From: Eubacterium sp.
Lineage (GTDB): Bacteria; Bacillota; Clostridia; Lachnospirales; Lachnospiraceae
DNA length: 64,000 nt
Direction: 5' to 3'
NCBI GenBank assembly: GCA_017634555.1
Contig: JAGBNF010000011.1
Location: 104,153-168,152, forward strand
This document shows positions 20,438 to 49,478 of the stretch, piece by piece. The notes beneath the pieces were generated by a model that was not told the origin of the DNA, did no database searches, and saw only the letters and a list, made by a program, of their open reading frames with translations. The position numbers were made by a program, and so were the translations under genes. The stretch's first letter is position 1. Each line of letters starts with the position of its first letter.

Positions 20438-20674
20438 ATGGAAACAAAAGCAGCAATCATCGCAATCATTGTGAAAGACGTAAAGTCATCAACCGAGATC
20501 AATGCAGTACTTCATGAGTATAATGACTGCATCATCGGAAGAATGGGAATCCCATACCGTACTAAGGGAATCAATATCATCAGCATCGCAGTGGATGCAG
20601 ATATGGATACCATCAACACCATGGCCGGAAGAATCGGACGAATTGAAGGCGTTTCAGCAAAGACAGTTTACTAA
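20438..20674 (+). CDS. TM1266-like iron-only hydrogenase system regulator
   Basis: The 78-residue protein is a small ACT-like, ferredoxin-fold protein of the TM1266 family, often annotated as an iron-only hydrogenase system regulator. The conserved run HEYNDCIIGRMGIPY and the GINIISIAVDAD strand are visible. A strong GAAGGAGAG precedes the start. In other clostridia the family sits beside hydE, hydF and hydG. Here HydF is about 6 kb and HydE about 13 kb away on the same strand. Its molecular role is not settled. Confidence 0.85.
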   Translation: METKAAIIAIIVKDVKSSTEINAVLHEYNDCIIGRMGIPYRTKGINIISIAVDADMDTINTMAGRIGRIEGVSAKTVY

Positions 20675-21768: not shown

Positions 21769-21809
21769 AAGAAATTTAGATATAGATATTTTGAAGAATG
21801 GAGAGAACG

Positions 21810-22562: not shown

Positions 22563-22575
22563 TGAGGTTACAGAG

Positions 22576-26065: not shown

Positions 26066-26072
26066 TGTTAAT

Positions 26073-26085
26073 GGTGCCAGGCACC
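26073..26085 (+). repeat. Short perfect palindrome GGTGCC-A-GGCACC
   Basis: A 6-bp perfect stem with a single central base sits between the kinase and regulator genes, followed by GTGAAAAAAGTGTG. The string GAAAAAAGTGTGG occurs again after the first NifH-like gene near 36842. It could be a small dispersed repeat; this window alone cannot show that. Confidence 0.35.
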
Positions 26086-26118
26086 GTGAAAAAAGTGTGA
26101 TACCGGAAAGGCTGATAT

Positions 26119-26772: not shown

Positions 26773-26810
26773 ACAGGCATATAAGCAGATAGTTGCAAAG
26801 GAGTTTTGAC

Positions 26811-33954: not shown

Positions 33955-35022
33955 ATGTCAGAGAGAACATCAAATCAGATATTAATAGATAAGCTTGAGG
34001 CAGAGCATGAACTGACCAAAGGCGAATGGATAACACTGCTCAGCACATATACCGATGAAGATAGAGCATACGCAGCCGAGAGAGCACGTACTGTGGCCGA
34101 CAGCGTATACGGAAAAAGTATATTCATCAGAGGAATAGTAGAATTTTCAAATGTATGCAAGAACAACTGCTACTATTGCGGAATCAGAGCAGGCAACGAC
34201 TGTCTCGAAAGATACAGACTTTCGGAAGAGGAAATCCTGAAATGCTGCAAGGCAGGCTATGAATACGGCTTCAGAACATTTGTCCTTCAGAGCGGGGAAG
34301 ACCTTACCTACAGCTGTGAGGATATATGCAGTATAGTATCTAAGCTGAAGAGTGAATATCCTGACTGTGCGGTAACGCTTTCCATCGGAGAGAAGAGCCG
34401 TGAGGAATATGCTGCATATAAGGCTGCGGGAGCTGACAGATATCTGCTCCGTCATGAAACAGCGGACGAAGAGCATTACGGAAAGCTTCATCCTTCGGAA
34501 ATGTCTTGGAAAAACAGAATGAGATGTCTGAAGGATCTGAAGGAGCTGGGCTTCCAGACAGGCTGCGGTATTATGGTGGGTTCACCTTACCAGACAGTAA
34601 ATTGTATCGCAGAGGATATGATATTCATGAGTGAATTTAAGCCGGAGATGATCGGCATCGGTCCATTTCTCCCGCATAAGGATACTCCTTTCAGGGATAT
34701 GCCGAAGGGATCCTATGAGCTGACACTCTTTCTTTTGAGTCTGTCGAGGCTTATGCTGCCGGAGGTTCTGCTTCCTGCAACAACAGCTCTCGGAACCATA
34801 AATCCGAGGGGCAGGGAAGAGGGAGTTCTTGCGGGGGCAAATGTAATAATGCCGAATCTGTCACCGATGGATGTCAGAAAAAATTACATGCTTTATGACA
34901 ATAAGATATGTACAGGCGATACATCGGCTGCATGCAGAGGATGCATTGAAGGAAGAATGGAGCAGATCGGATACAAGGTAGAGATTGCAAGGGGAGACCA
35001 TGTATCTTACGGTCGTAACTGA
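33955..35022 (+). CDS. hydE: [FeFe]-hydrogenase maturase HydE (radical SAM)
   Basis: The 355-residue protein has the radical SAM cluster motif CKNNCYYC at about residues 64-71 in FSNVCKNNCYYCGIRAGN, then LSEEEILKCCKAGYEYGFRTFVLQSGED, which is typical of HydE rather than BioB. MVGSPYQT, FLPHKDTPF and a C-terminal CRGCIEG follow. HydE helps build the dithiolate bridge precursor of the H-cluster. The ribosome binding site is weak. A membrane protein (27 bases) and a NifH-like protein (7 bases) follow closely, so HydE is apparently co-expressed with the nitrogenase-like system. Confidence 0.92.
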   Translation: MSERTSNQILIDKLEAEHELTKGEWITLLSTYTDEDRAYAAERARTVADSVYGKSIFIRGIVEFSNVCKNNCYYCGIRAGNDCLERYRLSEEEILKCCKAGYEYGFRTFVLQSGEDLTYSCEDICSIVSKLKSEYPDCAVTLSIGEKSREEYAAYKAAGADRYLLRHETADEEHYGKLHPSEMSWKNRMRCLKDLKELGFQTGCGIMVGSPYQTVNCIAEDMIFMSEFKPEMIGIGPFLPHKDTPFRDMPKGSYELTLFLLSLSRLMLPEVLLPATTALGTINPRGREEGVLAGANVIMPNLSPMDVRKNYMLYDNKICTGDTSAACRGCIEGRMEQIGYKVEIARGDHVSYGRN

Positions 35023-35049: not shown

Positions 35050-36069
35050 ATGTTTACCGCAACGTTAGGTATTGTATTTGGATTGATATATTGGAAATAT
35101 GTTTTATTTCTGTTTCAGCTGCTGTTCGGAAAGCTGCTTAAGTATCCGGCGGTAAAGATTGAAATTTTCGGATGGGACGGACATAAATATAATGAAAATG
35201 AAAAACGCAGATGGCATAAGGTGAAGAGAAAAGTAATGCCGATAGTTTCTTTTGCGATGAGAAAGGGACCGGACAGGGAAAAGCTTTTAGTCTTCGGACC
35301 GTACGCTGCAAGTTTGCTGATACATCTTATTCCTTTTATCATTATCAGAACAAGCTACGGCTCAGGAGCTTATAATGAGGGAATCGGATTTTTTACTACA
35401 CTTACCCTGTTTATGTCACTGCTCATGCTCGTAGTAATCATCCTTTGTGCAGTAAGCATCAATAAACCTATAAATAAGGAGCTTACCAGACTTTATAAGG
35501 AACAGATATATTCACTGTGGAACGGCGCCTCCTTTTCTCAGATAAATGTGTACCAGGGACTTACATCGGATAAGAGCGCATCCGGTCATCTCAGGGCGCT
35601 GCATCTGAATATGTGTATTTATAAGGCATTGGACAGAGGTGATTATCAGATGCTGCCGCAGTATCTGCAGGCTCTCGATGGAATACTATTGACACCGAAT
35701 GGATATAATACGGCATATAATTTCACGAGCTGTTATTACAACATACTTTTCTATTCCTCATACATTTATATCAATCCTCAGAATGCAATGAAGATATATT
35801 CTCTTATTAAGGAAACGATTGAAAATGATATGCAGGCATACGGAAGCAGGATACTTGCCTACTATCAGTATTTCATACTCAAAAGGCCGGACCTTGCGGC
35901 AGCGTCACTGTTCAGGGCGGAGGAGGCATTAAAGAAGGCCAACATGGATATATATACCGAGGCCGAAATGAATCTGGACAGGAAATATATAAAAGAACTC
36001 AGAAATCGTATGGCCGGTGACAGCCTGGTACAGAGCTCGGAGAATCCGGTAATGAGATACGAACAGTAA
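35050..36069 (+). CDS. Membrane protein of unknown function with helical repeat-like C-terminus
   Basis: The 339-residue protein starts with a membrane helix, then a basic cytosolic loop with [20 protein letters not shown], and two further helices around residues 80-140. The C-terminal 190 residues are soluble and helical with repeated Tyr/Leu patterns ([37 protein letters not shown]) that resemble TPR-like hairpins. I recognise no named family. It lies between hydE and the first NifH-like gene with tight spacing and an AAGGTG site, so it probably serves the same system, perhaps as a membrane anchor or assembly factor. Confidence 0.7.
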
Positions 36070-36076
36070 AGGAGTT

Positions 36077-36832
36077 ATGATGATAAAGTTTGCAATATAC
36101 GGAAAAGGCGGAATAGGAAAATCCACCCTTTCATCAAATCTTTCGGCGGCATTTGCGGCCAACGGACTCAGGGTTATGCAGATAGGCTGTGATCCGAAGG
36201 CAGATTCCACATCTCTTCACAGACCGAAGGAAAAGATGACTACGGTGCTTGATCTGGTGAGGAGCGGAAAGCCTTTTACATTGGAAGATATGGTGAAGGA
36301 AAGCTCCTCCGGTGTTCTCTGCGTAGAGGCCGGCGGTCCGATTCCGGGACTTGGCTGTGCAGGGCGAGGAATTATAAATGCACTGGAATCCCTGGAGGCA
36401 AAGGGAGCATATGAGAAGTATCAGCCGGATGTTGTAATATATGATGTTCTCGGAGATGTAGTCTGTGGAGGCTTTACAATGCCTATGCGTAAGGGCTATG
36501 CCGATAAGGTATATATCGTTACATCAGGAGAGAAAATGTCCATATATGCTGCGGCCAATATAGCCATGGCTGTGGAGAATTTTAAGAAGCGTGACTATGC
36601 AAAGCTGGGCGGAATAATACTTAACTGCCGAGGCGTGGAAGATGAGGAAAGTCGTGCGGCTGAACTGGCGGCGGATTTTGATACTTCGGTAATTGCCACA
36701 ATACCGCGTGATAAGATATTTGCTGATGCGGAAGCAGAAGGCGGAACAATCGTTGAGCTTTATCCGGACAGCGAAGTGGCAAAGATTCTCCGCAAAGCTG
36801 CAGAGGATATTTACAGCAGTTTTAATGACTGA
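36077..36832 (+). CDS. NifH-like reductase ATPase (copy 1)
   Basis: The 251-residue protein is a nitrogenase iron-protein homologue. It has Walker [11 protein letters not shown], the switch region GCDPKADST, the two cysteines that would bridge a [4Fe-4S] cluster between subunits (Cys94 in GLGCAGRG and Cys130 in GDVVCGGF), and VTSGEKMS. The conserved arginine in AGRGI is kept. It is shorter than true NifH (about 290) and lacks its C-terminal extension. It should pass electrons to a D/K partner at the cost of ATP; the likely partner is the pair at 38363-40938. The gene is cut off from that pair by a terminator-bearing leader and a secreted-protein gene. Confidence 0.93.
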
Positions 36833-36895
36833 GAAGGCTTCGAAAAAAGTGTGGAATACACTGACCATAAAGTGTTAAAAAACACAGAATCTTGT

Positions 36896-36925
36896 TTGAC
36901 ACTCCTTCGACGGGCGTGTTAAAAT
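36896..36925 (+). promoter_or_regulatory. Promoter before the structured leader
   Basis: TTGACA (36896-36901), an 18-base spacer and TAAAAT (36920-36925) form a consensus-like promoter. RNA would start near 36932 and enter the folded leader. Confidence 0.75.
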
Positions 36926-36931
36926 ACGATA

Positions 36932-37067
36932 ACAGATTAATACTTAACCAACCTGATATTGAAACCTATAGGATGTTAAAAACATCCGCAGCTTGAGATA
37001 GAAGCATGTGGCATTAGTTCTATAGGGAATTACTGCACTCTTCTGTCGCAAGGAGAGTGTTTTTTTA
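36932..37067 (+). ncRNA. Structured leader RNA with three-way-junction-like fold and terminator
   Basis: CCTATAG (36965-36971) pairs with CTATAGG (37020-37026). Inside lie a hairpin (GGATGTT/AACATCC, 36971-36987) and a short stem (GCTT/AAGC, 36991-37005). These are followed by an intrinsic terminator, CACTCTTC/GGAGAGTG with seven T (37036-37067), just before the secreted-protein gene. The arrangement looks like a riboswitch expression platform. I compared it from memory with c-di-GMP, THF, purine, SAM and glycine riboswitches and saw no match to their conserved cores. The fold is read by eye and the ligand is unknown. Confidence 0.55.
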
Positions 37068-37093
37068 TTTATATGAAACAGGGGAGAATAAAA

Positions 37094-38341
37094 ATGAAGA
37101 AAAAAGCTATTTTATGTTTTTTTGCAGCACTTATTATTACTATTTCAACATTGCTCAGCAGTGCAGCGGTAAAGGCTGATACACCAAAGAAGGCAGCACT
37201 CATAAAGCAGGGAACGTACAAAGGTGAAGTAAGCAAATCAAACAAAAAGTATTATAAGGTAAATCTTGATTCGGCAGGTGAAATAATTGTGTTTGCTGAA
37301 TCTACCAACGGTGGAATATATATCAAAGTATTAGATGAAAAGTATAGAGTAATGAATTATAGTGGTTTTACCTACGGAGGTACAGAAATAGTAGTAGGTA
37401 ATCATTATGCTTTTAAAAATGAAGCAGAGTGGAGTCTGCAGGAGGGTACTTATTATATTGAAGTGATTACATATTCTGAAAATAAGGTTTCATATGAATT
37501 TGATATTTCTTTCAAGCTTTCAAATGAGACTTATTCCGAGAAGACGAATAATGATGCATTTAATTATAATCCGCTTCCTTTCGGAAAGGTTATACGCGGA
37601 TGGGCTTCAGATCAGGAATCGGCAAATAACGACTATATTGATATCTATCAGTTTACCTTAAAAGAGACTTCGGTATGTGATATCAAGTTTTACGGTTATA
37701 ACAGCTTCGAGGCAGGAGAGACAGATATCTATATACTTGATGAGAATGATAAAAAGGTATTTCATGATCTGATGTATGACAGTACCACTGAAAAATGTGC
37801 AACTAATAAAAAAATCAAACTGAGTCGAGGAACCTATAGATTCTGTGTAGTGGGACCGTCTTGGGGCTGTGTATTTTATAAGTTTAAGATCAATACATTT
37901 ACTGCACTGGACAGAGATGTTAACGGACTTTTCAAAAACCGTTATAACAATGAAATGGGCTGGTATTATGTGACTAACGGAATGATTAATCTGAAGAAGA
38001 CCGGAATAGTAAAATGCTCGCATAATGACAAGTATTATTATGTAGAAAAAGGAAGGCTCACATTTGATAAAACGGGTTTGGTTAAGGGAACTATAAATGG
38101 TAAGACAGGCTACTGGCATGTGAAGGACAGCAGAGTTAAGTTTGATACCACACTGGTAAAGTTTAACGGGAAATACTATGCGGTTTTCGACGGACTTTAT
38201 GATTCAACAAGAACGGCCATAGTAAAGTATAACAATTCTTATTGGTATGTGAAGAAGGGAAAGCTTCAGTCAGATTTTACCGGCAAGGTTAAGATAAACG
38301 GAAAAACCTATAACATAGTTAAGGGTAAAGTAAAGAAGTAA
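37094..38341 (+). CDS. Secreted protein with C-terminal cell-wall-binding-like repeats
   Basis: ATG 37094 (after GGGGAG) is preferred to ATG 37073. The roughly 415-residue protein has a signal peptide (KKKAILCFFAALIITIS, probable cleavage after VKA). A beta-rich region follows that resembles two copies of a bacterial pre-peptidase C-terminal-like domain (KYYKVNLDSAGEIIVFAES; YIDIYQFTLKETSVCDIKF). From about residue 280 there are short aromatic repeats (GWYYVTNGM, KYYYVEKGRLTFDKTG, GYWHVKDSRV, KYYAVFDGL, SYWYVKKGKL) like choline- or glucan-binding repeats. It is probably surface-associated. It sits within the nitrogenase-like region, 21 bases before the next D gene. Confidence 0.8.
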   Translation: MKKKAILCFFAALIITISTLLSSAAVKADTPKKAALIKQGTYKGEVSKSNKKYYKVNLDSAGEIIVFAESTNGGIYIKVLDEKYRVMNYSGFTYGGTEIVVGNHYAFKNEAEWSLQEGTYYIEVITYSENKVSYEFDISFKLSNETYSEKTNNDAFNYNPLPFGKVIRGWASDQESANNDYIDIYQFTLKETSVCDIKFYGYNSFEAGETDIYILDENDKKVFHDLMYDSTTEKCATNKKIKLSRGTYRFCVVGPSWGCVFYKFKINTFTALDRDVNGLFKNRYNNEMGWYYVTNGMINLKKTGIVKCSHNDKYYYVEKGRLTFDKTGLVKGTINGKTGYWHVKDSRVKFDTTLVKFNGKYYAVFDGLYDSTRTAIVKYNNSYWYVKKGKLQSDFTGKVKINGKTYNIVKGKVKK

Positions 38342-38362
38342 TAGGATATAAAGGAATATAGA

Positions 38363-39751
38363 ATGATAAAGTCACTTCGTACAACTGAAAAGAGGATTCC
38401 TGAACCGATAGCACTTTCGGAAATGGATTTCCCGGTACCGTTCTATGAAGGCCTGCAGTATAATGCACCTTCCCGCGGCGTCTGGAATATAGTTCATACA
38501 GGAATGTTGATTCCGGAATCTCATCAGGTCTATGTCTGTGCTCAGGGCTGCCTCAGAGGTGTAATCCTTACTGCAGCTGAAATGAATGAGACAGAACGTA
38601 TGTCCTGGGTTGCTCTCAGAGAAGAGGATATGTGGAACGGTGAGATGGAAAAGCGTGTCATCGAAGGAACGGCACATATAGTGGATCAGATGAAGTCACA
38701 TCCACGTTCGATTCTTATCTATCTCAGCTGTATGCATATGTTTGAAGGCTGTGACTTTACGATGATCACAGATGAATTATCTGAAATGTATCCCGACATT
38801 GATTTTGTCGAATGCTTCATGATCCCTACGATGAGAAAGACCATGTCTCCGGATTCAATGATGAAGCTGAGCCTTTATGAATCGGTGAAGAAGCGGGAGA
38901 GAGACGATGATCTTGCTGCGATAATCGGATGTAATCTTCCGAATGATAAGGCTTCGGATCTTGTGTCTCTTATAGAATTATCCGGAAAAAGAGTATGGGA
39001 TATAACAGATTGTAAAAGCTATGATGAGTATCTGCAGCTCGGGTCTGCAGGAACGGCAATATCCTATCTTTCGGTTTCGGATGCCGCAGGAAAGCAACTT
39101 TCGGAAAGACTGGGGCTTAAGTGGCTCCGGGCGCCTCTCAGATTCGATGAGAAAAAGGTAGATGAGAATCTCTATATGATCGGTGAAGAGCTGGGACTCT
39201 CCAAGGAAGTAATCGGAAAATGGATCAGCGAACGTAAGGCTAAGGCTTATGCTGCTTTAGACGAAGCGAAGAAGGTAGTGGGTGATACGGAAATCGCCAT
39301 AGACTATACCGCTTATCCTTATATATTAGAGCTGGCAGAACTCCTGCTTAAGCACGGTTTCAATGTTAAGAAGATATATTCGGATAACTTCCCGGCAGAT
39401 GAGAGAGAGGCCTTTGAAAGAATAGTTGATGAATACAGTGACAGAGATATAAAGGTGTATCCGACCAATGATCCTGCCATGAGATTTGCGGCTGCCGGAT
39501 GCAGTCTGAATCTGAAGAACGATACAGCTGAATCGTCAAGTGAAGGTGCTGTGAATACTCTGGCTATCGGTCAGAAGGCCGCTTACTTTACGGGAACAAC
39601 ACATTTTATTGATATAGTAGAAGGCGGCGGAACCTACGGCTATCATGCCGTACTGAAGCTGGCGGAGCTTATGATAGAAGCATTTAATAACGAGAAGGAT
39701 ACAAAGAAAGTTATCAGTCACAAGGGATGGGGGTGCGACAGCTGCCTATGA
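38363..39751 (+). CDS. Nitrogenase-like component 1 alpha subunit (NifD/E-like, copy 1)
   Basis: The 462-residue protein belongs to the nitrogenase component 1 superfamily. Possible cluster ligands are Cys59 and Cys63 in YVCAQGCLRG (equivalent to GPVGC of NifD) and Cys123 in IYLSCMHMFEGCD. The first P-cluster cysteine of NifD has no equivalent (SRGVWNIVHTG). The FeMo-cofactor ligands are also missing: the NifD His442 region reads GTYGYHAVLK, with Tyr at that position, and no Cys275 equivalent is seen. The C-terminus ends in a CDSC pair. AAAGG precedes the start, and the next gene overlaps by four bases. It is not a dinitrogen-fixing NifD; the reaction is unknown. Confidence 0.88.
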   Translation: MIKSLRTTEKRIPEPIALSEMDFPVPFYEGLQYNAPSRGVWNIVHTGMLIPESHQVYVCAQGCLRGVILTAAEMNETERMSWVALREEDMWNGEMEKRVIEGTAHIVDQMKSHPRSILIYLSCMHMFEGCDFTMITDELSEMYPDIDFVECFMIPTMRKTMSPDSMMKLSLYESVKKRERDDDLAAIIGCNLPNDKASDLVSLIELSGKRVWDITDCKSYDEYLQLGSAGTAISYLSVSDAAGKQLSERLGLKWLRAPLRFDEKKVDENLYMIGEELGLSKEVIGKWISERKAKAYAALDEAKKVVGDTEIAIDYTAYPYILELAELLLKHGFNVKKIYSDNFPADEREAFERIVDEYSDRDIKVYPTNDPAMRFAAAGCSLNLKNDTAESSSEGAVNTLAIGQKAAYFTGTTHFIDIVEGGGTYGYHAVLKLAELMIEAFNNEKDTKKVISHKGWGCDSCL

Positions 39752-40938
39752 ATCAGACTGCAAGAATTATTTCAATATATGCGGCAGATACCTCGGGCGT
39801 ATGCTCTGCACTTTATGAATTCGGCGGAATGACCGTAATCCATGATGCCTCGGGCTGTAACTCCACTTATACGACTCATGATGAACCGCGCTGGTACGAT
39901 ATGGACAGCATGATGTTTATATCGGGTCTTACCGAAAGTGATGCGGTAATGGGAAATGATGAGAAGTTTATAGATGACCTGGTTACTGCGGCAGAGGAGT
40001 TAAAACCGGAGTATATAGCAATATGTGCGTCGCCTATGCCTGCAATGATCGGAATCGATATGGATGCCATAGCCTATGAGGTTGAAAGCCGTACAGGAAT
40101 TCAGGCCTTCGATGTGAAGACCAACGGAATGCAGAGTTATATCACGGGAGCGGGAAATGCATTTCTTACGCTGTCCGAAAGATTTACAGGAACTGCGGAA
40201 GACGACGACGAAAAGGTACCGGGTACCATTAAGATAAATATTCTCGGCCTCACACCCCTGGATTTTCCACTGGGAACAGACAGGATTCTTCGTGAGTGGT
40301 TAGAGAGTGAGGGTTTTAAGGTAAATGCCTGTATCGGAATGGGTACTTCACTGGATGAGGTAAGGAGACTGAACAGAGCTGATGTAAGCCTTGTTATAGC
40401 ATCATCGGGAAAGGCTCTTGCCGAGAGTCTTAAGGAAAGATACGGAATTCCTTATGTAACAGGCGTTCCTTACGGACAGAGTTACGCTGCAGTGATTGCA
40501 GATATGCTGAGAAATGCAGATGTATCCAAGAGCTGCAGAAAATATGATAAAAGAATAGCTGTTCTGGGAGAAAGTATTCTTTCTGCATCGCTTGCTGCTG
40601 CCATATCCCTTGAGACGGGATACGGAGTAAGAGTTCTTGAAACCGTGGGAGACGGCGATATGTCTCAGCTTGTAAGTGAGGGAACAGTTAAGGATATAAA
40701 CGGAGCTGATTATATAGGTGACATTTCCTGTGATGACGAAGATCAGCTGGAGAAGGAAATCGAGAAGTCGGAAATCATAATAGGAGATCCGCTTTTCAAA
40801 CCTATATGTCACGGAAGGAAGTTTATAGAGATTCCTCATGATGCATTTTCGGGAAGATGCTTCAAGAAGTATGAGAAGAATATGATAGCTGCGGAACTGC
40901 CATTTCTGGATGAACTGAAGAAAATGTCAGAAGAGTAG
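39748..40938 (+). CDS. Nitrogenase-like component 1 beta subunit (NifK/N-like, copy 1)
   Basis: ATG 39748 overlaps the previous stop (ATGA); an in-frame ATG 21 bases earlier is possible. The roughly 396-residue protein has the three cysteines expected for a NifK-side cluster: Cys19 (SGVCSALYEFGG), Cys37 (HDASGCNST) and Cys93 (AICASPMPAMIGIDM). NifK is longer, with an N-terminal extension that is missing here. It would pair with the subunit at 38363 to form an (alpha beta)2 protein. The motif HDEPRW after Cys37 is shared with copy 2 (FDEPRW). Confidence 0.88.
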   Translation: MNQTARIISIYAADTSGVCSALYEFGGMTVIHDASGCNSTYTTHDEPRWYDMDSMMFISGLTESDAVMGNDEKFIDDLVTAAEELKPEYIAICASPMPAMIGIDMDAIAYEVESRTGIQAFDVKTNGMQSYITGAGNAFLTLSERFTGTAEDDDEKVPGTIKINILGLTPLDFPLGTDRILREWLESEGFKVNACIGMGTSLDEVRRLNRADVSLVIASSGKALAESLKERYGIPYVTGVPYGQSYAAVIADMLRNADVSKSCRKYDKRIAVLGESILSASLAAAISLETGYGVRVLETVGDGDMSQLVSEGTVKDINGADYIGDISCDDEDQLEKEIEKSEIIIGDPLFKPICHGRKFIEIPHDAFSGRCFKKYEKNMIAAELPFLDELKKMSEE

Positions 40939-40975
40939 GAAATGAATCTGCAGAATAGATAAAGGAGTTTAGATT

Positions 40976-41734
40976 ATGATAAAGGTTGCCATTTACGGAA
41001 AGGGCGGAATCGGTAAGTCCACAGTCACATCAAATCTGTCTGCGGCACTTGCTTCGCTGGGTAAAAAGGTAATACAGATAGGATGTGATCCGAAGGCTGA
41101 TTCCACTGCGAATCTTCTTTCGGGAAATCCGGTAACACCTGTAATGAATTATATGAGAGAGCATGATGAGGAGCCGACCTCACTGGACCAGATTACCAGA
41201 GAAGGCTTCGGCGGAGTTGTATGTATAGAGACAGGCGGACCGACACCGGGTCTCGGTTGTGCGGGAAGAGGAATCATTACCACATTTTCCCTGCTTGAGG
41301 AGCTGGAGCTTAATAAGAAATATAAGCCGGACGCCATACTTTATGATGTCCTGGGAGATGTAGTATGCGGAGGCTTTGCGGCACCTATCAGAGAAGGATA
41401 TGCCGATAAGGTCCTCATCGTAACATCAGGTGAGAAGATGGCACTTTATGCTGCTGATAACATCAACAGTGCGGTAAAGAATTTTCAGGATAGAAGCTAT
41501 GCAAAGGTCCGTGGTATCGTAATGAACCGCAGAGCTGTTGAGGGCGAAGAGGATAAGGTTCGCGCATTTGCTGAGAGAACATCCCTTCCGATAATCGCCG
41601 ATATTCCGAGAACAAATGATATCATTCACTACGAGGATCAGGGAAAGACAGTTATCGAGGGTGACCCGACACTGGAGGTCAGCAAGAGATTCCTTGATCT
41701 TGCAAGACTTCTGATCGAGGAAGATGAAGCGTGA
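40976..41734 (+). CDS. NifH-like reductase ATPase (copy 2)
   Basis: The 252-residue protein has the same plan as copy 1: [19 protein letters not shown], cluster cysteines Cys95 (GLGCAGRG) and Cys131 (GDVVCGGF), and [22 protein letters not shown] precedes the ATG, 37 bases after the first K gene and just before the second D gene, so it is probably the reductase for pair 2. The two copies differ mostly in the region after GCDPKADST (LHRPKEK against ANLLSGN), where reductase and partner meet in nitrogenase. Confidence 0.93.
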
Positions 41735-41769
41735 TCGGCGCAGCAAAAACTAATTGTAAGGAAATGTAT

Positions 41770-43053
41770 ATGTCAGAATCATTTTATAAAACTGCAAAAG
41801 AATTAAGTGGGCTGCAGCTTTCGGAGCTTCCGGGAGAACTGAAGAGTACGGAGCATCTGATCTACAGCTCGCCTGCAACCCTTTCCTTTAACTCACCGGG
41901 AGCAAAGGGCTTCGGCGTTAAGCGTGCCGGACTTGCCGTTCCTGATTCGGTAATGCTTCTTGTATCACCGGGCTGCTGCGGACGAAATACATCGCTTTTT
42001 CGTTCGGCACCGGAGTATCGTGACAGATTTTTCTTCCAGCTTCTGGATGATACGGATATAGTAACGGGAAGGCATCTTACAAAGATTCCGCAGGCGGCAG
42101 AGGAAATGCTTGCGGTTCTTGAGAAGAAGCCGTCAGCCATAATGATATGTATCACCTGTGTGGACGCACTTCTCGGTACGGATATGGAAAGAGTCTGCAG
42201 AAAGGTAACGGAGAAAACGGGAATCCCTGCAGTTGCATGCTATATGTATGCATTAACCAGAGAGAAGAGACTTCCTCCGATGGCAGCTGTAAGAACATCG
42301 GTTTATTCTCTGCTTGAGAAAAGGGAAAAGAGAAATTCCAGAGACATGAATATCATGGGATTTTTCACTCCGCTTATGGACAGCTCCGAGATTTATCCCC
42401 TCATGCAGTCCATCGGTATTAAGAATATCAGAGAGCTTTCAAGATGTGAGAACTTTGATGAATATAAGGAAATGTCACTTGCAAACTTTAATCTTGTACT
42501 GAATCCGGAGGCCAGGGCAGCGGCACAGGATATGGAGCAGAGACTTGGTATTCCATTTATAGAACTGCTCAGACTTTACAGAACGGATAAGATCAGAAAT
42601 CAGTACAGACTTCTGGGCCAGGCACTCGGTGCAGAGATTGACGATTCAGAGTATTTTGAAAATGCGAGAAAATGCATCGGTACATTAAAGGAGAAATACG
42701 GAAAGCTCAGCTTCTCCGTAGGTGAGATCCAGAACGGAGATCCTATCGAGATGGCACTTATGCTTGTTGAGGAAGGCTTCGAGGTTAAGGAAATCTTTGC
42801 AACCATCGGTGAGCTCAACTTCAGATTCCTGAAGAGGCTTGCACAGCTCAGTCCGGATACAAAGGTTTATTCGAATCTGTCACCGACAATGCTCCATTAC
42901 AGTGAGGAAAAGGTTGACTGCTATATAGGAGCAGACTGCGAGTATTATCATCCAAATACGCCGGGAATCGACTGGTGTGATGATAATCAGCCTTTTGGAT
43001 ATGATGGAGTGATAAAGCTTTTCGAAAGACTGACTGAAAAGCTTGGAGGATAG
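41770..43053 (+). CDS. Nitrogenase-like component 1 alpha subunit (copy 2)
   Basis: ATG 41770 (MSESFYKTAKELSG) has AAGGA seven bases upstream and is preferred over ATG 41764 and a GTG at 41731. The roughly 427-residue protein resembles copy 1. Candidate ligands are Cys69-Cys70 in VSPGCCGRN and Cys127/Cys130 in MICITCVDALLGTDME. The His442 region of NifD reads QPFGYDGVIKLFERL here, so the YHGYDG pattern is kept except that the histidine is phenylalanine. A cysteine before FDEY (SRCENFDEY) is shared with copy 1 (TDCKSYDEY). It has lost the classical cofactor ligands and is co-transcribed with the next gene. Confidence 0.87.
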   Translation: MSESFYKTAKELSGLQLSELPGELKSTEHLIYSSPATLSFNSPGAKGFGVKRAGLAVPDSVMLLVSPGCCGRNTSLFRSAPEYRDRFFFQLLDDTDIVTGRHLTKIPQAAEEMLAVLEKKPSAIMICITCVDALLGTDMERVCRKVTEKTGIPAVACYMYALTREKRLPPMAAVRTSVYSLLEKREKRNSRDMNIMGFFTPLMDSSEIYPLMQSIGIKNIRELSRCENFDEYKEMSLANFNLVLNPEARAAAQDMEQRLGIPFIELLRLYRTDKIRNQYRLLGQALGAEIDDSEYFENARKCIGTLKEKYGKLSFSVGEIQNGDPIEMALMLVEEGFEVKEIFATIGELNFRFLKRLAQLSPDTKVYSNLSPTMLHYSEEKVDCYIGADCEYYHPNTPGIDWCDDNQPFGYDGVIKLFERLTEKLGG

Positions 43054-43057
43054 TATA

Positions 43058-44170
43058 TTGAAAAAATTACTTAGATATTTATCACCATTTGCACCGGATC
43101 AGTCGGGGGCATGCGGTGTGTTATATGAGCTCGGCGGCCTTATAGTCATCTGTGACGCGGGCGGCTGTGCCGGAAATATATGCGGTTTCGATGAACCGAG
43201 ATGGTTCACGAAAAGAAGTGCCGTTTTTTCTGCGGGACTCAGAGATATGGATGCCATAATGGGCCGTGATGATAAGCTAATCGCAAAGCTGGCATCGGCT
43301 CAGGAAAGTCTCGGAGGAAAGTTCACGGCCATCGTTGCAACACCTGTGCCAGCCGTTATAGGTACCGATATGAAGGCACTTAAGAGAATGGCGGAAAAGA
43401 AGACGGGTGTTCCGTGTATAACCGTAAATGCCATCGGAACGAAGTACTACGACGAGGGCGAGAGTGAGGCCTGGGAGAAGCTGTTCCGTGAATTTGCGGG
43501 AGCAGCGGAGAATGGTACGGATAATGATAGCGAGAGTTCAGTAGGCAGCACATTTACCGGTGTTATCGGAGCGACACCTCTCGAAACAGGTTACTCGACA
43601 CCGGAACCGCTGATGCAGGGGCTCGAAAGATACGGAATTGAAAATCCTGTTATCTACTCAATGGGAACAGGACTGGATGAGATAAAGCTTGCGGGAGCCG
43701 CAGGAAAGAATCTGGTTGTCAGTGCAGCCGGAATCGCAGCTGCAGAGTATCTGAAGGAAGAATTCGGAGTACCTTATGAAACAGGTTATCCGTTTATTAC
43801 TGAAGAGGTGATAGCTGAAGCGAAGGAGATTAGGAACGGTAAGGTGCTTATCGTTCACTCACAGTTTGCTGCAAATGAACTGAGACGCGTAATACGTGAA
43901 GCTGGAAATGCAGAGGTGGACTGTGGTACATTTTTCATGATGAATGAGAATTATTCGGAAGAAAGTGACATCAGGCTTGCCGGTGAGGATGAGCTCTGGG
44001 AGCTTGCGGGCAGCGGAAAGTATGATGTGATAATCGCAGATGATGATATAAAGAGGCTGCTTGATGCAGCAGGATTTAAGGGGAAATTTATTGCATTTCC
44101 GCATTATGCCGTATCCGGCAGACCGCTGGATGAGGGAAAGACTTTATTTGATCTTGATTACAGTGATTGA
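43058..44170 (+). CDS. Nitrogenase-like component 1 beta subunit (copy 2)
   Basis: TTG 43058 is the likely start, since GGAGGA (43045-43050) lies seven bases before it and overlaps the end of the D gene. The roughly 370-residue protein aligns with copy 1 without gaps over the first 100 residues. Cys19 and Cys37 are kept, with extra cysteines at 32 and 42 (VICDAGGCAGNICGFDEPRW). The third ligand is replaced by valine (AIVATPVPAVIGTD against AICASPMPAMIGID), so its cluster must differ from that of copy 1. HypF follows after 15 bases. Confidence 0.87.
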   Translation: MKKLLRYLSPFAPDQSGACGVLYELGGLIVICDAGGCAGNICGFDEPRWFTKRSAVFSAGLRDMDAIMGRDDKLIAKLASAQESLGGKFTAIVATPVPAVIGTDMKALKRMAEKKTGVPCITVNAIGTKYYDEGESEAWEKLFREFAGAAENGTDNDSESSVGSTFTGVIGATPLETGYSTPEPLMQGLERYGIENPVIYSMGTGLDEIKLAGAAGKNLVVSAAGIAAAEYLKEEFGVPYETGYPFITEEVIAEAKEIRNGKVLIVHSQFAANELRRVIREAGNAEVDCGTFFMMNENYSEESDIRLAGEDELWELAGSGKYDVIIADDDIKRLLDAAGFKGKFIAFPHYAVSGRPLDEGKTLFDLDYSD

Positions 44171-44185
44171 TAGGAGGTGAGGTCA

Positions 44186-46600
44186 GTGCTCACATACAAC
44201 ATAAGAGTATACGGTATAGTCCAGGGCGTTGGCTTCAGACCTTTTGTCAGCAGGACATGTAAGGATAATGGGATTACCGGAACGGTGGCGAACAAGGGCT
44301 CTTACGTGGAAATCTTTGCTCAGGGCGAGGATGTGGGAGTACTCTTCGATGCGCTGCAGTACACTCCGCCGGACAGGGCAGTGATACTGAATACCATAAG
44401 TCATGAATGTGATATGGAGGAGTTCGGTACATTTGATATCATAGAAAGCGAGAAGGACGAGGGCGACATATTTGTATCGCCTGATATTGCAATCTGTGAG
44501 GAGTGTAAGAGAGAACTGTACGATAAGTCGAACAGAAGATACATGCATCCTTTTATCAACTGCACCAACTGCGGACCGAGACTTACGATACTGGATTCAA
44601 TGCCCTACGACAGAGAGCGTACGAGCATGAAGGAATTTGAAATGTGCCCGGAATGCGGGTATGAATATACGCATCCGGAGACAAGACGCTATGATGCGCA
44701 GCCTGTATGCTGTCCGAACTGCGGGCCGTCTGTTTATCTGATAGAGACGGGCCTTAGTAAGAGGGAAGAAGGGGAAGCTTCAGGGAAAGCAGCGGGTTCG
44801 GGAAAGGGCAGGATCACGACGCGAGGTCGTGACGCCATAACCGCTGCAAGACGTGCACTTTCCGAAGGAAAGATAGTTGCGGTGAAGGGTATCGGCGGAT
44901 TTCATCTTGCCTGTGACGCAAAGAATGAGGAAGCGGTTGCAAGACTGAGACAGCTGAAGCATAGACCGATGAAGCCATTCGCGGTCATGATGAAAAATAT
45001 GGATACAGTCCTCAGGGAATGCAGGTTTGATTATGATGTTCGTAAGCTTCTGACGGGATATCAGAAGCCGATCATTTTGCTGGAGAAGAAATGTGAAGAG
45101 GACGGAAAGGGCTGTACGCTGGCCGAGTCTGTCGCACCCGACAATCCTTATGTGGGTGTTATGCTTCCATATACTCCGCTTCACATGCTGCTCTTTGAAT
45201 ATGATGATGATTGTGAGATTTCGGACTGCCTCGTTATGACCAGTGCAAATGCATCCGGAGCACCGATATGCAGGACCGATGAGGATGCACTCTCTGAGAT
45301 TTCGGATTTTACGGATTTCATTCTTTCAAATGATCGAATGATAAGGACCAGAGCAGATGACTCTGTCACGGATTTTTATAAGGGACAGCCGTATATGATA
45401 AGGCGCTCCCGAGGATTTGCACCGCTGCCGGTTATGATAAGCAGCGATGATGAGATGAGAAAGCTTAAGGGCCATGTGCTGGCCGTGGGCGGAGAGCTGA
45501 AGAATACATTTGCGATAGCGAAGGATTCTCTGATATATCCGTCGGCATATGTGGGCGACATGGAGGATATAAGGACCGTAAATGCTCTCGAGGAGTCGAT
45601 AACCAGAATGGAGTCGCTGCTGGAAGCAAAGCCGTCGCTGGTTGTATGTGATCTGCATCCGAAGTATAATACAACTGCAGTTGCAGAGTCGCTGGGACTG
45701 CCTGTTATGAAGGTTCAGCATCATTATGCGCATATACTTTCATGTATGGCGGAGAATGATTATCTGGGTGAGGTTATCGGAGTCAGCTTTGACGGAACCG
45801 GCTACGGAACGGATGGTACTATCTGGGGCGGAGAGTTCCTGAGATGCAGCGTTTCGGGCTTTGAGAGACTGGGTTCCATAGCACCGTTCATTCAGTGCGG
45901 AGGAGATCTCTCTTCGAAGGAGGGCTGGAGAATCGCAACGTCACTGCTGGGGGATTTTATGGGAAGTAAAACTGATACGGACGATGGAGCCATTCATAAT
46001 GCCGCACTCAGTAAAGACGTGATATGCAGTGAGCTTAAGCTTTGTTCTCCTATGGAATTCTCACTTCTGGAAAATATGGCGCGAACGGGAATAAACAGCA
46101 TCACTTCAACAAGTGCGGGAAGACTTTTCGATGCGGTGAGTGCTGTACTTGGAGTGAGACGAAGCTCTACATTTGAGGGAGAAGCATCGACCTCGCTTAT
46201 GTTTGAGGCAGAGAGATATCTGAGAAAAAATAAGGATAAGCTGATACCGGCTGCGGCCGAAGGACTTCAGATAACACCTGACTTTACAAGCAGACTTGCC
46301 ATAAGTATTGCTGAGAGACTGCTGAACGGTGAGGATAGGGGAAGACTTGCCTACATGTTCCATTCGGAGCTTGCGGGATATATAGTTGAAAGCTGCAGGA
46401 AATATTCTGAAGAAACAGGAATACGAACTGCTGCTCTCAGCGGTGGTGTATTTCAGAATAAGCTGCTGCTCAGCCTTGTTGATGAAGGACTTACTGCTTC
46501 GGGAATCAAGGTTCTCCGGCACAGTCTGATACCTCCGAATGACGGAGGAATATGCGTCGGTCAGGCTCTGGCGGGGCTGGTACATTTAAAAGAATCATAA
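44186..46600 (+). CDS. hypF: Carbamoyltransferase HypF
   Basis: GTG 44186 is chosen with AGGAGG seven bases upstream; an earlier GTG at 44177 overlaps that site. The roughly 804-residue protein is full length. It has an acylphosphatase domain (RVYGIVQGVGFRPFV), two zinc fingers (CEECKREL to CTNCGPR, and CPECGYEY to CPNCGPS), a YrdC-like domain (GGFHLACDA, LKHRPMKPFAVM) and a carbamoyltransferase domain with VQHHYAHILSCMAEN and VSFDGTGYGTDGTIWGGEF. HypF turns carbamoyl phosphate into the thiocarboxamide on HypE that becomes cyanide. It is the first of the hyp genes and lies 15 bases after the nitrogenase-like genes. Confidence 0.97.
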   Translation: MLTYNIRVYGIVQGVGFRPFVSRTCKDNGITGTVANKGSYVEIFAQGEDVGVLFDALQYTPPDRAVILNTISHECDMEEFGTFDIIESEKDEGDIFVSPDIAICEECKRELYDKSNRRYMHPFINCTNCGPRLTILDSMPYDRERTSMKEFEMCPECGYEYTHPETRRYDAQPVCCPNCGPSVYLIETGLSKREEGEASGKAAGSGKGRITTRGRDAITAARRALSEGKIVAVKGIGGFHLACDAKNEEAVARLRQLKHRPMKPFAVMMKNMDTVLRECRFDYDVRKLLTGYQKPIILLEKKCEEDGKGCTLAESVAPDNPYVGVMLPYTPLHMLLFEYDDDCEISDCLVMTSANASGAPICRTDEDALSEISDFTDFILSNDRMIRTRADDSVTDFYKGQPYMIRRSRGFAPLPVMISSDDEMRKLKGHVLAVGGELKNTFAIAKDSLIYPSAYVGDMEDIRTVNALEESITRMESLLEAKPSLVVCDLHPKYNTTAVAESLGLPVMKVQHHYAHILSCMAENDYLGEVIGVSFDGTGYGTDGTIWGGEFLRCSVSGFERLGSIAPFIQCGGDLSSKEGWRIATSLLGDFMGSKTDTDDGAIHNAALSKDVICSELKLCSPMEFSLLENMARTGINSITSTSAGRLFDAVSAVLGVRRSSTFEGEASTSLMFEAERYLRKNKDKLIPAAAEGLQITPDFTSRLAISIAERLLNGEDRGRLAYMFHSELAGYIVESCRKYSEETGIRTAALSGGVFQNKLLLSLVDEGLTASGIKVLRHSLIPPNDGGICVGQALAGLVHLKES

Positions 46601-46634
46601 GTAAATTTATATAGATGATAGGGAGGATAATAAA

Positions 46635-46847
46635 ATGTGTGTAGGACTTGCTGCAAGAGTAGTAAATGTTAAGGACGGAACTGCGGTTATCGACGCAGGC
46701 GGAGCTAAAAGAGATGTAAGTGCAGAGCTTCTCGAGGACCTTGAGCCGGGCGATTATGTTATGGTTCATGCCGGAGTTGCTATTGCAAAGATAACTGATG
46801 ACGATGCCGATGAGACTATGGGCATCCTGAAGAAGCATGCGAGATAG
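46635..46847 (+). CDS. hypC: HypC-like chaperone
   Basis: The 70-residue protein starts MCVGLAARVV with the essential Cys2 after the initiator methionine, followed by the small beta-barrel and DYVMVHAGVAIAKI, typical of HypC/HybG. The usual proline of the MCLAIPG opening is missing. HypC holds the iron with HypD while CN and CO are attached. GGGAGG precedes the ATG. DHFR follows seven bases later. Confidence 0.93.
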   Translation: MCVGLAARVVNVKDGTAVIDAGGAKRDVSAELLEDLEPGDYVMVHAGVAIAKITDDDADETMGILKKHAR

Positions 46848-46854
46848 GTGAATT

Positions 46855-47328
46855 ATGGTAGGATTAATTGTTGCACGTTCGAAGAATAACGTAATAGGTA
46901 AAAACGGGATGATCCCGTGGAGAATAAAGGGCGAGCAGAAGCAGTTCAAGGAGCTCACCACAGGAAATGTGGTCGTTATGGGCCGCAAGTCTTATGAAGA
47001 GATAGGACATCCGCTTCCAAACAGAAAGACTATAGTGGTTTCAAGAACAAAGAAGTATGAGGGAGAGAACCTCGCAACTGCAGCTTCTGTTAAGGAAGCT
47101 ATCGCAATGGCAGGTGATGAGAAGGTTTATATTTCCGGCGGATACGGCCTCTATAAGGAAGCACTGCCTCTCGTTGATGTAATGTATATAACAGAGGTGG
47201 ACACAGTAGTTGAGGACGGAGACGTATTCTTTCCGGAATTCAATGCGGATGATTTCGAGGTGGAGACCGGAGAAACCGGCGGCGATGAGATCAAGTTCAC
47301 AAGAATGACCTATACGAGAAAAAAGTAA
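46855..47328 (+). CDS. folA: Dihydrofolate reductase
   Basis: The 157-residue protein is a standard type I DHFR. It shows IVARSKNNVIGKNGMIPWRI with the catalytic acid as glutamate (PWRIKGEQ), the NADPH-binding VVVMGRKSYEEIG, KTIVVSRT, YISGGYGLYKEAL and a TEVD segment. It reduces dihydrofolate to tetrahydrofolate with NADPH. Its place between hypC and hypD is unusual. It could be the housekeeping copy caught in the operon, or a folate link to the one-carbon or carbonyl chemistry of the system, which is speculative. Confidence 0.95.
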   Translation: MVGLIVARSKNNVIGKNGMIPWRIKGEQKQFKELTTGNVVVMGRKSYEEIGHPLPNRKTIVVSRTKKYEGENLATAASVKEAIAMAGDEKVYISGGYGLYKEALPLVDVMYITEVDTVVEDGDVFFPEFNADDFEVETGETGGDEIKFTRMTYTRKK

Positions 47329-47345
47329 GATAAAGGAAAAGACAA

Positions 47346-48398
47346 ATGAGTGAAGTAATTGATAATGCAAGAGAAATCATAACAGGCTATAAGGGCCGTA
47401 AGCTCCGCATCATGGAAGTATGCGGAACTCATACTCATGAGATATTCAGACTTGGTATCAGAAGTCTGCTTCCGGAGGATATAGATCTTATATCCGGCCC
47501 GGGATGTCCGGTGTGCGTTACTCCGGTAGGCTTTATCGATGAGGCAATATACCTTGCACTTGAGAAGAAATGTACCGTATGTACCTTCGGTGACCTGATC
47601 AAGGTTCCGGGTACTACACAGAATCTTGCCGGCGCAAGAGCGGACGGTGCTGATGTTCGTCCTGTATATTCACCGGATGATGCGGTTGAGCTTGCAAAGG
47701 AGAATCCTGAGCTTCAGGTGGTATTCCTTGCAGTAGGCTTTGAGACAACAACTCCTTCGGCATGTCTTGCTGTTAAGAAGGCTGAGCGGCTCGGACTGAA
47801 GAATTTTTCAATCCTTACAGCCAACAAGACAATGCCAAACGCATATGCAAAACTGAAGGGCAGCGCCGATGCATTTCTCTATCCGGGACATGTAAATGCC
47901 ATTACCGGAAATGCAACCTGTGAGAAGCTGAAGGAAGAGGGCGTATCAGGTGTTGTTGCGGGATTTACTGCGAACGAGCTTATGACGGCGCTTGCCGTAA
48001 CTATAGATAATCTTGAGAAGGGCGAGCCTTTCTTCGAGAACTGCTATCCGAGAGTCGTAAAGCCTGAGGGAAATGTAGCAGCTCAGAAGATAATGGATGA
48101 GGTAATGGAGCTCTGCGATACAGAGTGGAGAGGCCTCGGAGTTATCGAAATGTCAGGTATGAAGCTGAGAGAGAAGTATGCAGACTTCGACGCAAGGATC
48201 AAGTATGACATGCCTGAAATAAAGGGTAAGCCGAATCCTGCATGCCGATGCGGAGAAGTACTTCAGGGTAAATGCAAGCCTTCAGACTGTCCGATGTTCG
48301 GAAAAGTATGTACACCGCTTCATGCAGTGGGTGCATGTATGGTTTCCGATGAAGGAGCATGCGCGGCTTACTATACATATGGAGCTGCAGTACAGTAA
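47346..48398 (+). CDS. hypD: Hydrogenase maturation factor HypD
   Basis: The 350-residue protein has the conserved HypD features: MEVCGTHTHEIFR, SGPGCPVCVTP with the redox-active cysteines, GFETTTPS, FLYPGHVNAITG, and a C-terminal [4Fe-4S]-binding region with CRCGEVLQGKCKPSDCPMFG and GACMVSDEGACAAYY. HypD with HypC assembles the Fe(CN)2CO unit of NiFe hydrogenases. No NiFe hydrogenase subunit is present in the window. Confidence 0.97.
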   Translation: MSEVIDNAREIITGYKGRKLRIMEVCGTHTHEIFRLGIRSLLPEDIDLISGPGCPVCVTPVGFIDEAIYLALEKKCTVCTFGDLIKVPGTTQNLAGARADGADVRPVYSPDDAVELAKENPELQVVFLAVGFETTTPSACLAVKKAERLGLKNFSILTANKTMPNAYAKLKGSADAFLYPGHVNAITGNATCEKLKEEGVSGVVAGFTANELMTALAVTIDNLEKGEPFFENCYPRVVKPEGNVAAQKIMDEVMELCDTEWRGLGVIEMSGMKLREKYADFDARIKYDMPEIKGKPNPACRCGEVLQGKCKPSDCPMFGKVCTPLHAVGACMVSDEGACAAYYTYGAAVQ

Positions 48399-48473
48399 AT
48401 TTACACAAAATAAAAAGTAAAATTACTATAGATTTTTGGCTAATATTTATAGTATTATTGAAAGGAAAGAAAA

Positions 48474-49478
48474 ATGGACGAAAAGATAACACTTGCTCAT
48501 GGCTCCGGCGGAGTTCAGACAAATGAGCTTATAGGAAATATATTCAAGAAGCACTTTGCAAACCCGTATCTTACGGCTGATGATGCGGCTGTACTTGATA
48601 TGACTGCTGGTAAGATTGCGATGTCTACAGATGGATTTATAGTTTCTCCGTACGAGTTCCCGGGCGGAAATATCGGAAAGCTTTCAATCTGCGGAACCGT
48701 TAATGATGTTGCCTGTATGGGTGCAAAGCCTGAATATCTTACATGCTCTTTTGTTATTGAAGAGGGATTTCCTGTAGAGAAGCTCGAGGAGATTGCCGAG
48801 GCTATGGGAAAGACAGCAGAAGAAGCAGGGGTATATCTGGTTGCGGGAGATACCAAGGTTGCGGGAAGAGGACAGGTTGATAAAATCTTCATTACCACAA
48901 CAGGTATCGGACATATAATTGAAGGAGCAGCTACCTCGGGTGCGTATGCAAAGCCGGGAGATAAAATCATTGTTACAGGCGATATCGGTCGTCATGGCTG
49001 CACTATTCTTCTTGCGAGAAATGATTTTAAGATTGATGCGGATGTTACAAGTGACTGTGCTCCGCTTGCGAAAAATGTAGCAGCAGTTCTTGAGGCTACA
49101 AAGGACGTACATGTAATTAGAGATGCGACTAGAGGCGGCGTGGGAACCGTTCTCTATGAAATAGCAGCAGAGAGTAATGTGGGGATTTCACTCGATGCTG
49201 ATAAGATTCCGGTTCATGACGGAGTTCGCGGTGTATGTTCTATGCTCGGACTTGAGCCGCTTTATCTTGCATGTGAGGGAAGACTGGTAATCTTCGCACC
49301 TGCAGAGGAAGCAGATAAGATAATAGATGCACTTCACGGATGCAAGAATTCGGAAGGTGCCTCTGTAATTGGAGAAGTAACAGAGGAGAATACGGGAAAG
49401 GTAATACTTAATACCGCAGTCGGCGCGAAAACATTTCTTTCAAGACCAAGCGGAGAGCTATTACCAAGGATATGCTAA
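48474..49478 (+). CDS. hypE: HypE, carbamoyl-dehydrating cyanide donor
   Basis: The 334-residue protein has the HypE/PurM fold: LAHGSGGVQTNELI at the start, DDAAVLDM, STDGFIVSPYEFPGGNIGKLSICGTVNDVAC and VAGDTKVA. It ends in the invariant C-terminal PRIC, whose cysteine carries the carbamoyl group and then the cyanide. The active end is intact, so cyanide production is likely. The gap before it is 75 bases and AT-rich. It is the last gene of the nitrogenase-like/hyp operon. Confidence 0.97.
   Translation: MDEKITLAHGSGGVQTNELIGNIFKKHFANPYLTADDAAVLDMTAGKIAMSTDGFIVSPYEFPGGNIGKLSICGTVNDVACMGAKPEYLTCSFVIEEGFPVEKLEEIAEAMGKTAEEAGVYLVAGDTKVAGRGQVDKIFITTTGIGHIIEGAATSGAYAKPGDKIIVTGDIGRHGCTILLARNDFKIDADVTSDCAPLAKNVAAVLEATKDVHVIRDATRGGVGTVLYEIAAESNVGISLDADKIPVHDGVRGVCSMLGLEPLYLACEGRLVIFAPAEEADKIIDALHGCKNSEGASVIGEVTEENTGKVILNTAVGAKTFLSRPSGELLPRIC

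Follow-up and report, generated by a model that had tools for sequence, protein, structure and literature searches.

A 64,000-nucleotide stretch of contig JAGBNF010000011.1 of Eubacterium sp. (hereafter the window) encodes two sets of nitrogenase-like proteins, H1-D1-K1 and H2-D2-K2, which lie in line with HypF, HypC, HypD and HypE and share the window with HydE and HydF. This locus probably constitutes a pathway by which the two-iron part of the H-cluster in [FeFe]-hydrogenases is built without HydG, HypFCDE and the nitrogenase-like enzymes taking its place. In the excerpt of PMC9431212 cited here, HydG generates CO and CN in the form of an Fe(CO)2CN synthon and is regarded as their source in [FeFe]-hydrogenases. 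The locus is assigned to H-cluster assembly because HydE, HydF and a TM1266-family protein, all three from families named for [FeFe]-hydrogenase maturation, are encoded in the window and HydG was not found in the carrier genomes surveyed below. The proposed substitution of HydG draws on comparative genomics, namely gene content, and from this starting point we infer the chemistry. The relevant genes of the window are:

20438..20674, plus strand: TM1266-family putative regulator of the iron-only hydrogenase system, 78 amino acids (TIGR03959 104.5 bits, cut-off 60.8; Pfam TM1266-like 1.8e-29)
26793..28049, plus strand: HydF, H-cluster maturation GTPase and scaffold (TIGR03918 558.3 bits, cut-off 325.55)
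33955..35022, plus strand: HydE, radical S-adenosylmethionine H-cluster maturase (TIGR03956 565 bits, cut-off 254.6)
36077..36832, plus strand: H1, NifH-like ATP-dependent Fe-protein (Fer4_NifH 8e-84)
38363..39751, plus strand: D1, nitrogenase component-1-like, resembling NifD/NifE (Oxidored_nitro 1.4e-17)
39727..40938, plus strand: K1, nitrogenase component-1-like partner (Oxidored_nitro 2.7e-33)
40976..41734, plus strand: H2, NifH-like ATP-dependent Fe-protein (Fer4_NifH 1.1e-87; best solved relative 1cp2)
41731..43053, plus strand: D2, nitrogenase component-1-like, marker of the Hyp-linked set (Oxidored_nitro 2.2e-30)
43043..44170, plus strand: K2, nitrogenase component-1-like partner (Oxidored_nitro 9.7e-21)
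44177..46600, plus strand: HypF, carbamoyltransferase (TIGR00143 718.6 bits, cut-off 466.1)
46635..46847, plus strand: HypC, chaperone of the Fe(CN)2CO unit (TIGR00074 64.2 bits, cut-off 48)
47346..48398, plus strand: HypD (TIGR00075 408.9 bits, cut-off 192.8)
48474..49478, plus strand: HypE, ending in PRIC (TIGR02124 422.5 bits, cut-off 251.6)

Open reading frame (ORF) listing and family scans bear out a preliminary description of this DNA, which had placed two NifH-like proteins, four Oxidored_nitro proteins and HypF, HypC, HypD and HypE at these positions. From K1 to HypD the genes overlap or almost touch (spacings of 37, -4, -11, 6, 34, 7 and 17 bases), so that the "gaps of 4-37 bases" given there are about right, except that two of them are overlaps (-4 and -11) and that a choline-binding-repeat protein and a dihydrofolate reductase encoded among these genes went unmentioned.

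The absence of HydG was evaluated in 299 genomes of the window's family, of which 92 match K1 at 0.001 or better and 40 at 1e-22 or better (termed strong K1). A Hyp-linked system, defined as nitrogenase-like genes adjoining HypD, occurs in 18 of these genomes, the window's own counted in. G091, whose system is split over three contigs, was excluded from the 18 and matches the same pattern (HydG and NiFe hydrogenase not found, HydF and a partial HydE present). HydG (TIGR03955, 1e-80) was detected in 131/299 family genomes but in 0/18 Hyp-linked ones (Fisher p = 2.5e-5; Fisher p-values here disregard genome relatedness and hence overstate independence). HydE and HydF were each present in 18/18, every genome carrying one HydF, scored over at most the best 20 candidates per genome, and one full HydE, with pieces of an extra broken HydE in G124. 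In the window's assembly the HydF and HydE listed above are the sole matches at 1e-50 and 1e-40, respectively. The [FeFe]-hydrogenase large subunit (PF02906) was matched at 1e-80 or better in 16/18. Beyond the family, a D2 profile retrieved 486 relatives among 84,980 species genomes, and the best 80 of the 486, which are partly close relatives, form the named set. It spans Ruminococcus albus KH2T6 and AR67, R. bicirculans 80/3, Ruminococcus FC2018 and YE71 and four Lachnospiraceae isolates, and also holds metagenome-assembled genomes (MAGs) labelled Lentisphaeria and Synergistaceae. Fifty of these 80 genomes, either isolates or those whose contigs looked longer by eye, were examined: HydG was found at 1e-60 in 0/50, HydF in 50/50 (up to 29 candidates scored) and PF02906 at 1e-70 or better in 46/50. 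Concealment of HydG by poor assembly was rejected as an explanation, the HydG-less set including the single-contig genomes G191 and G232 and R. bicirculans 80/3.

A hand-picked panel of 80 genomes (40 with strong K1, 25 further HypD genomes and 15 others) revealed what retention of HydE and HydF goes with. All 17 HydG genomes of the panel carry both proteins, and among the 63 HydG-negative ones HydF is present in 26/36 strong-K1 genomes versus 1/27 others, with the same figures for HydE (26/36 versus 1/27); some of the 27 have weaker K1 matches. Within the panel, therefore, HydE and HydF accompany either HydG or nitrogenase-like genes and almost never occur otherwise. These counts bear directly on the idea that HydG is simply dispensable, HydE and HydF scavenging cellular CO and cyanide while the linked genes have some other role. 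HydF that had matured with HydE alone gave ~1% activation of HydA, according to the portion of PMC9431212 cited above, and some genomes hold HydA with no maturase over the cut-offs, both of which would suit such scavenging. It is nevertheless very unlikely, because HydE and HydF retention tracks the nitrogenase-like genes and only G011 (86% complete) of the 27 panel genomes lacking both HydG and strong K1 retains the two maturases.

HydE and HydF were compared residue by residue between HydG-containing and HydG-less sets (18 versus 59 sequences for HydE and 19 versus 50 for HydF, the larger sets including loci of genomes untested for HydG). For this purpose L061, L062, L063 and L027 were counted as HydG-positive and the two G011 sequences (L204 and L205) were omitted. 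Among sites that do not vary in HydG genomes, 95/106 in HydE and 73/73 in HydF are kept in at least 90% of the HydG-less set, and fixed differences between the sets number zero in either protein. Such conservation argues that in both settings HydE and HydF are given an identical or almost identical substrate. On single-gene trees the HydG label changes 11 times by parsimony for HydE and 10 times for HydF (shuffled means of 16.2 and 16.7, respectively), so that either the switch was repeated or the genes were exchanged. The retained residues also help to weigh whether the locus builds a novel iron cofactor with CN/CO that belongs to some enzyme besides [FeFe]-hydrogenase, HydE and HydF having been recruited for it. 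Nitrogenase-like pairs can build or use cofactors, NifEN and NifDK being the precedent, and the best PF02906 match of the window's assembly is merely 1.3e-63, both in keeping with a separate cofactor. That account appears quite unlikely in view of the one HydF and one full HydE per genome in 18/18, the retention of most sites invariant in HydG genomes, the PF02906 matches in 16/18 and 46/50 genomes at the thresholds given above, and the TM1266 gene, which goes along with the operon.

Gene order was read in 40 loci (8.7-19.9 kb) from 38 strong-K1 genomes, G198 not being fetched and the window's genome not fetched anew, and around D2 in the named set. The preliminary description had proposed that conserved linkage in relatives would be informative, and the linkage holds. 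Among loci of the best 80 of 486, K2, HypF, HypC and HypD are present in all 46 with at least 8.5 kb downstream of D2, and HypE in 42 of these 46. Upstream, D1, K1 and H1 were identified in 56, 56 and 55, respectively, of the 57 loci with at least 6 kb before D2, while the 45 with at least 8.5 kb contain a TM1266-like ORF (43), HydE (32) and HydF (29). TM1266-like ORFs were detected by similarity, with a TIGR03959 check on L117, L141, L027, L029, L061 and L063. The usual order in named loci is TM1266-HydF-HydE-H1-D1-K1-H2-D2-K2-HypF-HypC-HypD-HypE. Loci of the family sample display another order, in which HypF, HypC, HypD and HypE are present in 11/11 loci with room downstream of D2 and D1 lies further downstream in 10/11. 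HydE is on the same fetched stretch as the Hyp-linked system in 7/18 and HydF in 6/18 (window included), and otherwise elsewhere in the genome. Two loci, L034 and L056, have D2 frames of 854 and 812 amino acids and no separate K2, and are apparent D2-K2 gene fusions. Compared with canonical HydE/HydF/HydG maturation, the locus is similar in that HydE, HydF and TM1266 score above their family cut-offs, TM1266 also adjoining HydG in L061 and L063. It differs in that HydG was not found in its carriers, nitrogenase-like enzymes and HypFCDE standing in its place.

The hyp genes are reserved for this system and do not belong to a NiFe hydrogenase. Among 54 HypD genomes, a NiFe hydrogenase is present in 34/36 without a Hyp-linked system versus 2/18 with one (Fisher p = 1e-9). 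The two genomes without such a system in which it was not found are G051 and G091. The NiFe-positive carriers, G069 and G230, each have a second HypD on the NiFe-bearing contig. The preliminary description had noted that HypA and NiFe-hydrogenase subunits are missing from the window; HypA and the NiFe large subunit were likewise not found across the window's assembly, which comprises 2.33 Mb and is 72% complete. The NiFe large subunit was not found in 16/18 Hyp-linked genomes, and HypA was not found in 15/18 (it is present in G069, G230 and G243) nor in 9/9 isolate genomes. A NiFe hydrogenase missed in an incomplete assembly, served by these hyp genes with coincidental neighbours, gains some room from the 72% completeness of the window's assembly. 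It is extremely improbable given that no NiFe locus elsewhere explains the genes in 16/18, including single-contig G191 and G232, that the remaining two carry an additional HypD beside NiFe, and that HypA was not found in most carriers. A NiFe maturation locus was rejected on the same grounds. In sets filtered by similarity to the window proteins, HypE ends in PR[IVL]C in 69/69, HypD contains GPGCPVC in 78/78 and HypC has MC[VLI] near its start in 58/59. Synthesis of Fe(CN)2CO is expected because the four Hyp proteins pass their NCBIfam cut-offs and keep these hallmark motifs. In that respect they resemble the HypABCDEF machinery of NiFe maturation, in contrast with which they lie inside an [FeFe]-hydrogenase maturation locus and mostly without HypA or the NiFe large subunit in the genome.

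The paralogous nitrogenase-like proteins are diverged, with identities of 23% for D1-D2, 34% for K1-K2 and 54% for H1-H2. Both Fe-protein groups display the motifs GCAGRG and D..CGGF (D[VI][VI]CGGF in H1), in 80/80 H1 and 93/93 H2 sequences, and a P-loop in 79 and 92, respectively. Over filtered sequence sets, conserved cysteines comprise C59, C63 and C123 of D1 (87/87), C82, C83, C140 and C143 of D2 (96/96), C42 and C47 of K2 (84/84) and C44 of K1 (91/94). Three MAG loci, L154, L160 and L163, have extra ORFs between operon genes and valine in place of K1 C44. Alignments to solved chains revealed that D2 C143 and D1 C123 align with a conserved NifD/NifE cysteine, which we take to be an interface-cluster ligand, an arrangement that would fit an iron-sulfur cluster lying between the D and K proteins. 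The position of the D2 profile aligned to the cofactor-binding cysteine of NifD, presumably Cys275, is not cysteine. None of these proteins reaches an NCBIfam cut-off of the nitrogenase type, and scores are far below (H2, 299 bits versus 394 for nifH; K1, 48 bits versus 654 for nifD), so a free-standing nitrogenase was rejected. Assignment to a known reductase, raised in the preliminary description, found no match either, as no NCBIfam cut-off of such an enzyme was reached (H1, 302 bits versus 402 for CfbC; K1, 54 bits versus 509 for the BchB type). Duplicated pairs, Fe-protein motifs and part of the interface cysteines are shared with NifDK/NifEN and the component-1 families, whereas cut-off scores and the residue at the NifD cofactor position in the D2 profile are not. 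Similarly, the architecture of a NifH-like plus a NifD/K-like component is common to DPOR, CfbCD and other nitrogenase-like reductases, in contrast with which the proteins described here score far under the cut-offs, are linked to hydrogenase maturation genes and have no tetrapyrrole-synthesis gene in their conserved set.

HypF and HypE make cyanide from carbamoyl phosphate, which is loaded on the iron of HypC-HypD, and the four Hyp proteins together make Fe(CN)2CO. A reasonably likely form of the proposed pathway is a second H-cluster route in which HypFCDE makes an Fe-cyanide/CO unit that two ATP-driven nitrogenase-like enzymes convert into the synthon used by HydE and HydF. HypFCDE would first supply cyanide-bearing iron on HypC-HypD. 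H2/D2K2 and D1K1, the latter with its own H1 or a shared H, would then reduce or remodel the Fe-CN/CO unit as ATP-driven low-potential reductases or as scaffolds, perhaps through CO generated by CO2 reduction or through exchange of a ligand (cyanide). Finally, the resulting Fe(CO)x(CN) synthon, otherwise provided by HydG, would pass to HydE and HydF, which would finish the cluster as usual. That the product is that of HydG or a close relative is conjecture, as are the stage at which each D/K pair acts and the source of CO. The preliminary description had offered two alternatives, and it is the second, a HypCDEF product handled by a nitrogenase-like scaffold, that fits. The first, in which a new reductase stands alone and has a CN/CO centre of its own, is less probable given HydE, HydF and TM1266 in the window and the failure to find HydG. 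The earlier account, which overlooked those three genes, is thus supported in part.

Several observations weigh against the replacement of HydG by this locus. The best PF02906 match is 1.3e-63 in the window's own assembly (72% complete), in a 478-amino-acid frame read as sensor-like, and 2.0e-57 in G083; L087, the nearest locus among those retrieved, comes from a genome (G308) that has a PF02906 match of 1.9e-97 and HydF and in which HydG was not found. HydE residues L61, G113 and V298 do not vary among HydG genomes, yet only 31%, 22% and 29% of the HydG-less set retain them. Four of the 18 Hyp-linked genomes (loci L032, L035, L054 and L059) lack a second H beside D1K1, and there one H may serve both D/K pairs. 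Four genomes (G072, G143, G224 and G262) combine a strong K1 match with HydG, HypD being present in none of them, and ten HydG-less strong-K1 genomes lack HydF, nine of these also lacking HydE. Some genomes contain HydA with H-cluster motifs while HydE, HydF and HydG are below cut-offs and a strong K1 match is lacking, and therefore HydA without HydG is no proof of replacement. Lastly, seven genomes (G048, G117, G134, G226, G227, G245 and G281) contain an H1D1K1-like set and HydF, six of them also HydE, and neither HydG nor HypD was found in them; HypFCDE is therefore not the sole possible partner. The set of G048 is more distant (D 25%, K 35%). HydA-type ORFs with all three H-cluster motif patterns were read in L187-L192 and L206 (G017, G008, G022, G160, G032, G293 and G050), genomes in which HydE, HydF and HydG were not found over cut-offs and which, except G293, lack strong K1; the patterns are imperfect, the HydG-positive control G012 displaying 1/3 and R. 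albus and R. bicirculans 2/3.

In the seven Hyp-free genomes, ORFs similar to an ATP-binding cassette (ABC) importer lie beside the H1D1K1-like set or HydF. The importer of G227 (L022:7758-15360) was checked and comprises FecCD, Peripla_BP_2 and an ABC ATPase fused to a TM1266-like domain; the best NCBIfam relatives of its FecCD and Peripla_BP_2 genes include B12, heme and siderophore transporters, all under cut-off. In this Hyp-free variant a precursor may be brought in by the ABC transporter, in one genome fused to the same regulator domain. Importer-type loci with H1D1K1, ABC importer genes and HydE and/or HydF near are L022, L029 and L038 (G227, G117 and G134). A further, more distant nitrogenase-like HDK group (L045-L047 and L049-L053, from G293, G152, G004, G244, G295, G059, G285 and G228) lies mostly beside importer-like ORFs, in genomes without HydE or HydF.

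The same loci bear on a different division of labour, in which Hyp alone feeds CN/CO, on HypCD, to HydE and HydF, and the nitrogenase-like sets catalyse some unrelated reduction, with a tetrapyrrole as one possible substrate, sharing only the operon. The two-component relatives DPOR, COR and CfbCD act on tetrapyrroles, BchB-type chains occur among the structural matches of K1 and K2, and B12 and heme transporters figure, under cut-off, with siderophore transporters among the nearest relatives of the L022 importer. This division is unlikely, as H1D1K1 stands beside HydE and HydF even in G117 and G227, in which HydG and HypD were not found, and D2, K2 and HypF are linked in 46/46 named loci with room.

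Three further ORFs accompany the operon in the window:

35050..36069, plus strand: uncharacterised 339-amino-acid protein between HydE and H1, a membrane protein by eye, without Pfam or NCBIfam family
37073..38341, plus strand: choline-binding-repeat protein between H1 and D1 (PF21540)
46855..47328, plus strand: dihydrofolate reductase between hypC and hypD (PF00186 5.3e-45)

The 339-amino-acid protein is outside the general operon, and L087 has a 49% similar ORF. The choline-binding-repeat protein is an insertion outside the conserved set, no such ORF lying between H1 and D1 in L087. The dihydrofolate reductase, matched in 4/80 named loci, is probably a lineage-specific passenger; it is DfrF-like but under the DfrF cut-off (250.8 versus 320 bits). 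The last two were rejected as pathway parts, being lineage-specific. Between TM1266 and HydF (21798-26772) lie genes for a NarL-type two-component system and for an ABC transporter that has two SagH-like permeases, all of them scoring under cut-off. An Rfam scan of the window gave no match above the gathering score.

Among the papers listed from the literature library searched, none described this link, judged by title or start of abstract. If the second route proposed here is true, the nitrogenase superfamily would, to our knowledge, have its first role in making a hydrogenase cofactor, and the route would bridge NiFe and FeFe maturation. It offers a testable function for an orphan group of nitrogenase-like proteins and suggests a new route to a hydrogenase active site. 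The finding could bear on acetogenic clostridia, genomes outside this sample, in which the excerpt of PMC9431212 reports HydE and HydF with HydG undetected, its authors also proposing atypical HydG candidates. The apparent replacement is carried by Ruminococcus albus, a known rumen H2 producer, and by numerous bacteria of the rumen and gut that bear the label Lachnospiraceae or Ruminococcus. According to an extract of PMC6776011, R. albus 7 generates H2 by means of [FeFe]-hydrogenases; the HydG-less genomes include two further strains of the species. In the same extract 23% of 501 rumen genomes scored nitrogenase-positive though rumen N2 fixation is negligible (PMC6776011), for which the system described here would be one possible explanation.

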